A DNA stretch of 46,766 nt. Origin: Acidimicrobiia bacterium (lineage in GTDB: Bacteria > Actinomycetota > Acidimicrobiia > Acidimicrobiales > Aldehydirespiratoraceae). Of the stretch, positions 36,973-39,859 are shown in pieces. How positions within the stretch are numbered: the first letter of the stretch is position 1; each line of letters begins with the position of its first letter. The position numbers were made by a program, and so were the translations under genes. The stretch spans positions 1 to 46,766 of the forward strand of contig JAUIML010000006.1 of assembly GCA_030432715.1 (NCBI GenBank), in the 5' to 3' direction. The notes below the pieces were generated by a model. It worked only from the letters and a program-made list of their open reading frames with translations. It did no database searches and was not told the origin of the DNA.

Positions 36973-36980
36973 GCACATGC
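36973..36980. repeat. Target-site duplication, left copy
   Basis: GCACATGC immediately outside the left inverted repeat, identical to 39852-39859. An 8-bp duplication is the usual length for the IS1595 family, and the identical copies show that the element inserted as one unit. Confidence 0.88.
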
Positions 36981-37005
36981 GGTGATGTGTGACTTGACGT
37001 ACCCA
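36981..37005 (+). repeat. Left terminal inverted repeat of the IS element
   Basis: Begins GGTGATGTGT and ends ACGTACCCA. It pairs with 39827-39851, with a single mismatch at position 11 (G on the left, T in the complement of the right end). Ends starting with GG fit IS1595-family termini. Confidence 0.92.
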
Positions 37006-37021
37006 AGGACTTGACGTACCC
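36992..37021 (+). repeat. Tandem 13-mer at the left end and transposase promoter region
   Basis: ACTTGACGTACCC occurs at 36992-37004 (inside the inverted repeat) and again at 37009-37021, just inside it. The right end has a single copy. Each copy contains TTGACG, a good -35; from the first copy a 17-bp spacer leads to TACCCT (37017-37022). The second copy ends 8 bp before the transposase ATG. It may be a second transposase-binding site that also represses the transposase promoter. Confidence 0.6.
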
Positions 37022-37029
37022 TTTGGGGT

Positions 37030-38016
37030 ATGGAGTTTTCGATTCCCGCTCTCGCCAACAAGATTCAGACCGAGGCAGACGCCTACATCCTGTTGGAGCA
37101 CATGCGATGGGGCGATGACCTTTCTGGCCAGTCGTGCCCGAAGTGTGGCTCGGTCCGCAAGTTCTATTTCATCAAGCCCAAGGGTGGCGACGGGACGACC
37201 CGTAAGACGAATCGCGGCACCGCAACGCAGCGTCGCCGCTGGAAGTGCGCCGATTGCCGTCACCAGTTCTCGGTACTGACGGGGACGATCTTCCACGGCA
37301 CGAAGGTGTCGATCCGAACGTGGCTGTTCGTCATCTTCGAGATGTGCTCATCGAAGAACGGCGTCTCGGCCCGCGAGATCGAGCGCAAGTACGGACTCAC
37401 CCCAAAGACGGCGTGGTTCATGACGCACCGCATCCGCGAGGCAATGAAGCGTGAGCCAATGGCCGGTCTACTGGCTGGGACGATCACCGCGGATGAGACA
37501 TATATCGGCGGCAAGCCACGCAACAAGCATGGCGGGACCCGCCCGGTCGGACCCGGCCGTTCGCGCCGGCCCGACAATAAGACCGCCGTGCTATCGCTCG
37601 TGGACCGTTCCACTGGCGAGGTCCGCTCACGGGTGCTTCCGACCGTCACCGGCGGCACGTTGAAGGAAGCGATCACGAGCGAGGTCGATGTCGCGAACTC
37701 GACGCTCCACACCGATGAGCACTCTGGCTACCGCAAGCTCGGGGCTGAGTTCAAGGCGCACGAGACGGTCCGCCACTCGGCATGGGAGTACGTTCGCGGG
37801 GATGTCAGCACAAACCACGCCGAGGGCTACTTCAGCCAACTGAAGCGATCGCTCGACGGGACACACCATCACGTCTCACGCGAGCACCTGCCCCGGTACC
37901 TGGCCGAGTTCGACTACCGCTACTCGACCCGCGACCTGTCCGACACAGAGCGCATGCGCCGGGTCATCAACCAGACGCAGGGGCGTCGGCTCCGATACCA
38001 GGGCGGGATTGCCTAG
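37030..38016 (+). CDS. IS1595-family (ISXO2-like) transposase
   Basis: 328 residues. An N-terminal zinc ribbon of four Cys (C36-x2-C39 and C73-x2-C76: SCPKCG, KCADCRHQF) is followed by a helix-turn-helix (about 108-135: NGVSAREIERKYGLTPKTAWFMTHRIREAM) and the ISXO2-like catalytic core. The acidic residues are D155 (TITADETYIGG), D229 (LHTDEHSGY) and the N262-x2-E265-x6-K272 block (TNHAEGYFSQLKRSLDGTHHH). REHLPRYLAEFDYRYSTR is the family's closing motif. All expected catalytic residues are present, so it is probably active. ATG 37030 sits 24 bp inside the left inverted repeat. Confidence 0.95.
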   Translation: MEFSIPALANKIQTEADAYILLEHMRWGDDLSGQSCPKCGSVRKFYFIKPKGGDGTTRKTNRGTATQRRRWKCADCRHQFSVLTGTIFHGTKVSIRTWLFVIFEMCSSKNGVSAREIERKYGLTPKTAWFMTHRIREAMKREPMAGLLAGTITADETYIGGKPRNKHGGTRPVGPGRSRRPDNKTAVLSLVDRSTGEVRSRVLPTVTGGTLKEAITSEVDVANSTLHTDEHSGYRKLGAEFKAHETVRHSAWEYVRGDVSTNHAEGYFSQLKRSLDGTHHHVSREHLPRYLAEFDYRYSTRDLSDTERMRRVINQTQGRRLRYQGGIA

Positions 38017-38156
38017 TCCTTATCGTCGTCTGGTGGCGGGGTGTGGAGCAACGCCCTAAGGGCGTCCAATGGTTCGAGCGGAATCGCCATGCGTTCGTCG
38101 GGGTCGTGCTGTGGCTTGTCTTGCCGACGTTGGCTCGGTCGCTTCGGGTTAGGCAT
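38013..38156 (-). CDS. Possible 47-aa small protein, third passenger gene
   Basis: An ATG at 38156 overlaps the end of the 317-aa gene (ATGCCTAA: its start precedes that gene's TAA) and runs to a TAG at 38013-38015, which overlaps the convergent transposase stop codon by 4 bp. The N-terminal half is basic and Gln-rich (NPKRPSQRRQDKPQ); the C-terminal half is an amphipathic segment, then Pro and acidic residues (PLDALRALLHTPPPDDDKD). An internal ATG at 38092 would give 25 aa. The overlap and filling of the whole space argue for a gene; the small size and the hairpin ACGCCC-TAA-GGGCGT inside it (38051-38065, a possible terminator) argue against. It could be an antitoxin-sized partner. Confidence 0.5.
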   Translation of the reverse strand: MPNPKRPSQRRQDKPQHDPDERMAIPLEPLDALRALLHTPPPDDDKD

Positions 38157-39102
38157 CGTCATCAAGGATACGCAGCCCGCGAAGCTCATAGGTGACGCGC
38201 TGGGTGTCCATCAGTGGTGATTCCGTGATTATGTGCGCTACCTCAGCGCGGACGCGGCTGTCGAGTGTGATGAGCCGAACGGTAGGGAGAAGTTCATCGG
38301 CCACAGTCCCTCGATAGTCGAGGAGTCGACCAGTCTCGGGGTCTGGGGCTATCAGGTGGAACCGCTGGTCAGTTACGTCGCCACCGGTCAATGTCCCGAC
38401 CACCGTTCGAACATCCTCTGTTTCGTCCACGTTTGTGACGGCCTCGACCATCAGCTCGGCATCCCGTGGGCGCAGTGACACGACCTCACCTCTCCATCGA
38501 ACTTGTGCCGTCGTGGCACCGTCTGACAGCTCGTCAGCCAGGCGCTTGTACGACTGGATCGAGCGCGTTCTGAGGTCCCACAACTGTTCGATCACAGGTT
38601 GTGGATCATCGCTGTCTCTCGCTGTTCGGAGCACGGACACAAACTTCTCGGCCGTCCGGTCAAACAGGGGGTCGTGAAGAAGTGACAGGTTCTCCCTGGC
38701 GGGAGCAGGGCCGATCCGAATGCCGAACGAACCGCCAAACACGGTGGACAACACGGGTTCGATCAGGGCGGCGCGGTCTTGTGGTTCGACCTTGTCGCCA
38801 TCCATCGCAAGTACGTCGCGGCTTGTGTTGCGGAGCGCTCCGCCCACGGGCCCGACCAGCCGCACGAGTCGTCCAAGTTCGATCGAGTTGCCGTGAACTC
38901 CCTGTCCATCGAGGACGAAATCCAGCCCGCCACCAATCGAGGCCAACTCGCGCTCAAGGTCCGTTATCCGACGGTTGGCGCGTCGCTCCTCGTCGGCAGC
39001 ATCGCTCCCAGGTTCAACCCGTTCTATGGCGTTGTGGCGGTGGTGCCGACGAGTCCGCTCAAGTCGAAGCCGGGTTTCTAGGTACTTACGAGACCGGATC
39101 AT
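38149..39102 (-). CDS. Passenger protein of unknown function, coiled-coil N-terminus
   Basis: 317 residues. Residues 1-58 are strongly basic and then charged (LETRLRLERTRRHHRH, RRITDLERELASI), probably DNA- or partner-binding and coiled-coil. A central domain (about 60-205) contains GNSIELGRLVRLVGPVGGAL, VFGGSFGIRIGPA and a helical LRTRSIQSYKRLADELS segment. A C-terminal beta-rich part (about 215-312) includes VVGTLTGGDVTDQRFHLIAPDPETG, suggesting a small barrel. The layout reminds me of an unnamed family with a G-S-F-G motif and a GTLxGxD barrel, but I cannot name it. No membrane segment or known catalytic motif is seen. ATG 39102 overlaps the upstream passenger gene by ATGA. Confidence 0.82.
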   Translation of the reverse strand: MIRSRKYLETRLRLERTRRHHRHNAIERVEPGSDAADEERRANRRITDLERELASIGGGLDFVLDGQGVHGNSIELGRLVRLVGPVGGALRNTSRDVLAMDGDKVEPQDRAALIEPVLSTVFGGSFGIRIGPAPARENLSLLHDPLFDRTAEKFVSVLRTARDSDDPQPVIEQLWDLRTRSIQSYKRLADELSDGATTAQVRWRGEVVSLRPRDAELMVEAVTNVDETEDVRTVVGTLTGGDVTDQRFHLIAPDPETGRLLDYRGTVADELLPTVRLITLDSRVRAEVAHIITESPLMDTQRVTYELRGLRILDDDA

Positions 39103-39677
39103 TCGCCACCTCCTTCGTCTTCAGCGATGATGAGATACCCCACGGCTACATCGTCGCCCGCCGGGTGCTGACACATGTAGCGGGCTTGGACTAACGCCGC
39201 GTTGCTCTCGTCGAATCTCGGGTGCGGATACTGCGCTGTAAGAAACAGGTCGGTATCAACCGTCAACACGTCACCCCCCAGGGATTGGGTCTCACCATCG
39301 AACATTCGGCGTAGGAGGAACTGATCGTCGGTCGACAGGTCGCCGAACTCGTCTCGGTCGGCGGTCATGGCTAGGTACATGTCAACGGGGTCGGTTTCGT
39401 CGGTCACGAAGCTGCCTGACATCATGAACAGGCTGTTCGGCAGTCGCTTCACCGCAGCCTCGCGAAGGTTGACCCACTCATTGTGAAGAATCGCCCTGGT
39501 CGATGAGTTGTCGTAGGCCGCCAGAAAGCGGGATGCCACCTGCGTTGGCGTTGCGACGTGCCCTGCATAGGTCGCGACGGAATACTCCTCGCCCTCCTCG
39601 TCGGTGAGGGTCTGGATTCCGCCTGGGCTTTCCCCGATGGGGAGTAGCCCGTTTCCGTCGAACGCCGGTATCGACAC
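39099..39677 (-). CDS. Passenger protein, nucleotidyltransferase-like (DUF6932-like)
   Basis: 192 residues from GTG 39677 (SIPAFDGNGLLPIG). This N-terminal block and the later GSFVT motif (residues 88-92, then TDPVDMY) recall the DUF6932 group of predicted nucleotidyltransferase-fold proteins, where the sequence usually reads GSFVT...P.DID. Here the second Asp of DxD is replaced (D99-M-Y101), so catalysis may be lost. A Gly/Asp-rich C-terminal region (DVLTVDTDLFLT) follows. An alternative GTG at 39737 would place the start inside the LexA box and is rejected. The gene overlaps the 317-aa gene by ATGA and heads the passenger operon. The family assignment is from memory and moderately confident. 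Confidence 0.8.
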   Translation of the reverse strand: MSIPAFDGNGLLPIGESPGGIQTLTDEEGEEYSVATYAGHVATPTQVASRFLAAYDNSSTRAILHNEWVNLREAAVKRLPNSLFMMSGSFVTDETDPVDMYLAMTADRDEFGDLSTDDQFLLRRMFDGETQSLGGDVLTVDTDLFLTAQYPHPRFDESNAALVQARYMCQHPAGDDVAVGYLIIAEDEGGGE

Positions 39678-39728
39678 AGAGTCTCGACTGTATCCGCGAG
39701 CGAGACGCCAGTCGAGACGTTGGCAGAT

Positions 39729-39746
39729 TGCGAACACATGTTCGCA
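39729..39746. promoter_or_regulatory. LexA/SOS box upstream of the passenger operon
   Basis: An 18-bp inverted repeat, TGCGAACA-CA-TGTTCGCA, whose core CGAACACATGTTCG (39731-39744) is an exact match to the Gram-positive and actinobacterial LexA consensus (CGAAC-N4-GTTCG). It lies 52 bp upstream of the passenger-gene start. TTGTCA on the minus strand (39768-39763) is a possible -35 with the box 16 bp downstream, so bound LexA would cover the -10. DNA damage should therefore release transcription of the cargo. Confidence 0.85.
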
Positions 39747-39826
39747 TCATCTGGGAGGGGTGTGACAAGCTGAATCGTAGGTCCACTGTAGCGCGTGTGT
39801 ACGCTGGTGTACATCACCAGATAAGG

Positions 39827-39851
39827 TGGGTACGTCAAGTAACACATCACC
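39827..39851 (-). repeat. Right terminal inverted repeat of the IS element
   Basis: The complement of 36981-37005 with one mismatch; its outer end reads ACATCACC. A second partial copy of the terminal motif (TACATCACC, 39810-39818) lies just inside, within the inverted repeat CTGGTG-TACAT-CACCAG (39804-39820). Confidence 0.92.
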
Positions 39852-39859
39852 GCACATGC
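39852..39859. repeat. Target-site duplication, right copy
   Basis: GCACATGC directly outside the right inverted repeat, identical to 36973-36980. Confidence 0.88.

Follow-up and report, generated by a model that had tools for sequence, protein, structure and literature searches.

A candidate LexA-repressed DNA-damage promoter at the head of a passenger operon in an IS1595-family element of an acidimicrobial genome

A LexA-type site lies beside two passenger genes of a small insertion element in the genome of an Acidimicrobiia bacterium, raising the question of whether the cargo of such an element is governed by the DNA-damage response of its host. The window analysed here is the whole stretch of DNA in which the element was found, 46,766 nucleotides long. 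It is highly likely that a two-gene operon of an IS1595-family element, comprising p1 (coding for a DUF6932 protein) and p2, is read from a host-type DNA-damage promoter with LexA repression. The box, the LexA motif of the host, the resemblance of the promoter to host promoters, the two ends of the element and the fact that the box recurs with the same cargo can all be read directly from the DNA.

The element is 2,871 bp long (36981-39851) and carries the transposase gene inside its terminal inverted repeats. The left (36981-37005, plus strand) and right (39827-39851, minus strand) repeats pair with each other and have the sequence GGTGATGTGT(G/T)ACTTGACGTACCC; they are bordered by direct repeats of GCACATGC at 36973-36980 and 39852-39859, representing the left and right target-site duplications. 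With the duplications included, the two arms (36973-37005 and 39827-39859) are 91% complementary. An 8-bp target duplication is characteristic of the IS1595 family, and was also seen at three other IS1595 loci (L025, L027 and L030). The transposase (37030-38016, plus strand, 328 aa) is a DDE enzyme of the IS1595 type with a zinc ribbon, matching PF12762 (9.1e-38), PF12760 (1.7e-11) and NF033547 (4.3e-56). The element is present as a single copy in its genome, between a divergent MerR/TOBE gene and an mscS-like gene (39915, plus strand). In congeners this junction is uninterrupted and lacks the element, which indicates insertion in this lineage. The closest transposase (73% identity) was found with different cargo in a metagenome-assembled genome labelled as a gammaproteobacterium. 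The end of the element nearer the transposase has two copies of the sequence GACTTGACGTACCC, 17 bp apart (36991-37021).

The LexA box, CGAACACATGTTCG (39731-39744), is the only exact CGAAC-N4-GTTCG site in the window; with up to one mismatch permitted, eight sites were found against 3.7 expected. It is embedded in the 18-mer TGCGAACACATGTTCGCA (39729-39746), described in the first-pass annotation as an 18-bp palindrome around an exact LexA site. The arms of the 18-mer, TGCGAAC and GTTCGCA, are indeed perfect (7+7 bp), but the ACAT between them is not itself palindromic. The 18-mer is therefore palindromic around a 4-nt core, the usual structure of a LexA box. The exact site itself was borne out and scores like the SOS boxes of the host. 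Using matrices derived from 12 host SOS sites, with the window box left out, it reached 23.95 bits on the 14-bp matrix, compared with 20.3-25.5 for the reference sites and 12.0 for the runner-up in the window; on the 20-bp matrix it scored 25.4, and the second-best place in the window 11.8. No match as strong on the 14-bp matrix occurred in 3 Mb of simulated order-3 Markov sequence.

The relevance of the box depends on the motif recognised by the LexA protein of the host, and a different motif had been named as grounds for abandoning the claim. The host genome, a draft that is 83% complete, encodes LexA (L008; Pfam LexA_DNA_bind 1.2e-23, Peptidase_S24 1e-29) and contains 36 exact CGAAC-N4-GTTCG sites. 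Two boxes are located 60 and 86 bp upstream of lexA, and gene calling around the sites revealed the same motif ahead of recA, dinB, a PHP/DNA polymerase III alpha (DnaE)-type gene and uvrD, with further boxes preceding a DnaQ-type exonuclease gene, mraZ and several DUF222/HNH genes. Pfam searches confirmed LexA, RecA, IMS polymerase, PHP/DNA_pol3_alpha, UvrD, RNase_T and MraZ among the products of the adjoining genes, as well as DUF222 at L010, L013, L014 and L104; at L003 and L094, HNH was detected only below the curated Pfam cut-off. On the 20-bp matrix the exact sites of the genome fall into two score classes, at least 20.4 and at most 16.0, the latter located nearly all within genes. The host motif also agrees with that of Streptomyces venezuelae LexA, tCGAAC-N4-GNNCGa (PMC9380542). 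The mraZ box (L102, position 1501) is 103 bp upstream of the gene, which hints at SOS control of cell-division genes. An AlkB-like (L108) and an ImuA-like (L097) gene, guessed by eye, gained no confirmation from Pfam and were therefore left out of the evidence.

On the minus strand, TTGTCACACCCCTCCCAGATGATG is followed by the LexA box. This stretch includes the promoter-like element TTGTCAcac-CCCTCCCA-GATGAT (39747-39768, minus strand), whose TTGTCA (39768-39763) had been annotated as a -35-like hexamer 16 bp from the 18-mer. The distance is correct, but the element better fits a damage promoter of the recA-P1/PafBC type than an ordinary -35. A generic sigma-70 scan found no promoter in the p1 region, which speaks against the proposed promoter. 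The consensus of mycobacterial recA P1, a LexA-independent and PafBC-dependent promoter, is tTGTCRgtg-8nt-TannnT (PMC5656591). The p1 element has TTGTCR, and its 9-mer is separated by 8 nt from the -10 sequence, which is GATGAT (39752-39747) instead of TannnT, so that the match to the consensus is incomplete.

Similar elements accompany LexA boxes elsewhere in the host. The heptamer TGTCACA has a single occurrence in the window, at 23 bp from the box, and precedes the box by 22-23 bp at three HNH-type genes of the host (L003 and the close paralogues L014 and L104), the background frequency of TGTCAC being 0.12 per kb per strand. In the recA loci of the host and of a second genome, G918, TGTCA(C/T)ACCCCCTCCGTAnnnT is present between the LexA box and the gene. 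An extended promoter pattern, which permitted T or G in the -10 sequence by a choice made after the p1 site had been seen, was confined to p1, recA and two HNH genes across the window and 108 kb of host loci. In both recA loci the interval between LexA box and gene carries TGTCRYACCCCYTCCSTANNNT (L007, 1550-1571; L116, 1547-1568), which resembles mycobacterial recA P1.

The operator sits at the presumed p1 promoter, with the promoter element arranged as at the host HNH genes, and the combination of a LexA operator with a PafBC-type element plausibly makes a dual damage promoter. LexA bound at 39731-39744 would cover the transcription start and repress the operon; upon DNA damage LexA would be cleaved, and TTGTCAcac-N8-GATGAT would drive p1 together with p2, which overlaps it. 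The sequence comparisons give good support to LexA control of the cargo. Since a promoter like the damage promoters of the host is joined to a perfect LexA site, DNA damage probably turns the cargo on, and it would be off until then, as first proposed. The most serious alternative is that the operon is switched mainly by a LexA-independent PafBC-type promoter, with LexA only modulating it. The likeness to recA P1 speaks for this, as does the use of the PafBC-type route by most damage genes in mycobacteria (PMC5656591, PMC11804915), and a PafBC homologue may be presumed in the host. However, the LexA box is at full strength and overlaps the likely transcription start, making such a subordinate role for LexA less likely.

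The box is 52 bp from the first passenger gene, as originally annotated, provided that translation of p1 begins at GTG 39677, the point from which the protein resembles DUF6932. A second possible start in the same frame, GTG 39737, lies inside the box, 20 codons ahead of this point. A start codon that opens the frame of the gene is likewise placed within the LexA box at uvrD of two genomes (L098 and L114) and at four HNH-type genes (L003, L014, L094 and L104), the shared form being ATG-TTC-G; GTG 39737 occupies the equivalent place. This arrangement suggests the presence of leaderless SOS genes in this group, and p1 may itself have a leaderless start at GTG 39737. Leaderless transcripts are documented for lexA of Mycobacterium tuberculosis (PMC2897130).

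Conservation of the box in sibling elements gave a divided answer. Neither p1 nor p2 was found by tblastn in any of 67 IS1595 loci taken from public genomes, and near-relative elements bear different cargo, DUF5343 and DUF3800 proteins among it. CGAAC-N4-GTTCG was absent from the 2.3 kb beyond the transposase in all 52 IS1595 elements with enough sequence, and LexA-type boxes of other groups and phyla showed no excess over chance in them. On the other hand, a search for p2 in the order (two overlapping samples of 298 and 397 genomes), the family (51 genomes) and the phylum (396 genomes) yielded one further element with the same cargo, locus L112 of G918, a genome of another family. It has its own terminal inverted repeats, an IS1595 transposase (38% identity) and relatives of p1 and p2 (about 31%) in the same arrangement. 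Between its inverted repeat and p1 there is a one-mismatch box, CGAATGTACGTTCG, which is the best LexA match in 11.5 kb. Its score is 16.9, while six of the own sites of G918 reach 19.0-21.7; 0.0009 such matches are expected in this interval by chance. The LexA protein of G918 was confirmed, with three boxes. L112 lacks TGTCACA and has instead TTGACT of its inverted repeat 17 bp before the box. Judged by these comparisons, the box goes with the cargo and not with the transposase.

The two cargo genes run toward the transposase. p1 (39099-39677, minus strand) encodes a protein of the DUF6932 family (PF22014, 1e-8), and its stop codon overlaps the ATG of p2 (ATGA, 39102-39099). p2 (38149-39102, minus strand) encodes 317 aa without sequence matches in Pfam, NCBIfam, PADLOC or PDB, its relative in L112 being 29-32% identical. 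A p2 match in L022/L023, part of an ArsA-type ATPase-like protein, was judged to be due to chance. The structural model of p2 is poor (pLDDT 54) apart from a better-scoring C-terminal barrel; the last 80 or so residues are predicted to be OB-like, with weak OB-fold matches (E about 5e-3). The prediction for p1 was too poor for use (pLDDT 44). Relatives of p1 carry a GS-x9-D-x-D motif, which we take to be reminiscent of nucleotidyltransferases, while in the p1 motif, GSFVTDETDPVDMY, Tyr replaces the second Asp. Searches found no relatives of p1 or p2 in plasmids, none of p1 in phages and none of p2 in viral contigs. A defence or toxin-type function of the cargo product can be suggested only tentatively.

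The operator could also work in front of decaying cargo that yields no functional product. Besides the Tyr substitution, the p1 relative in L112 (4277-4806) is interrupted, with homology continuing in another frame past a stop, so that this copy may be decaying or hold an assembly error, and GC3 of p1 and p2 (0.66-0.72) is below that of host genes (about 0.85). Loss of function is nevertheless rather improbable, as p1 and p2 of the window are both open over their full length with the ATGA overlap, p2 is open in L112 and conserved at about 30%, and the low GC3 may reflect only foreign origin.

Control of the mscS-like gene instead of the cargo is far less credible. The box is symmetric and located about 170 bp upstream of the ATG of that gene, which the element separates from its divergent MerR/TOBE neighbour, but the promoter-like element beside the box faces p1, which starts at the box or at most 52 bp from it, and in L112 the box adjoins p1 at an unrelated locus. 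Least credible of all is a functionless chance palindrome: about 15 exact matches in the genome do look like background, but these score at most 16 and are nearly all within genes, while the window box, at 25.4, adjoins TGTCACA at the spacing seen in SOS genes of the host and has a counterpart in the other element with this cargo.

Mobile cargo under SOS control is familiar from prophages, colicins, integrons and conjugative elements. In the literature searched (open-access, mostly titles and abstracts), no LexA-controlled passenger operon was found in a small insertion sequence. The proposed control shares the CGAAC-N4-GTTCG core, the recA/lexA/dinB targets and the operator position at the promoter with the actinobacterial SOS regulon of S. 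venezuelae (PMC9380542), but it would act on the passenger operon of an insertion sequence and not on a chromosomal repair gene. Compared with mycobacterial recA P1 (PMC5656591), the p1 promoter retains TTGTCR and the 8-nt spacing but has GATGAT for TannnT and is fused to a LexA box, PafBC being putative in this host. With other IS1595 elements carrying passenger genes the present one has in common the transposase family, the inverted repeats, the 8-bp duplication and cargo beyond the transposase inside the repeats; their cargo differs, and their LexA-type boxes are not above chance. If the proposal holds, the stress response of a host can govern the cargo of an insertion sequence, and there is a trigger that can be tested for DUF6932 gene pairs. 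A further idea, which we regard as speculative, is that the cassette travels in an insertion sequence with a ready-made host-type dual damage promoter, bringing new hosts a defence or abortive module that DNA damage would trigger.

The nearest described counterpart of the cargo is the two-gene phage-defence candidate PDC-M63 of PADLOC. p1 matches PDC-M63A weakly (4.1e-6), in agreement with PF22014, and the partner downstream of it is comparable in length (317 aa for p2, 306-309 for the PDC-M63B models). Neither p2 nor its relative in L112 matched the PDC-M63B models, and the pair is therefore not assigned to PDC-M63. Deletion of PDC-M63AB in Escherichia coli NILS69 had no measurable effect on phage defence (PMC12409345). 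At another locus (L134, 1420-3041), where no insertion sequence was recognised within 3.5 kb around the gene and the partner showed no significant similarity to p2, a DUF6932 gene is followed by a 337-aa partner weakly matching PDC-M63B (0.0033).
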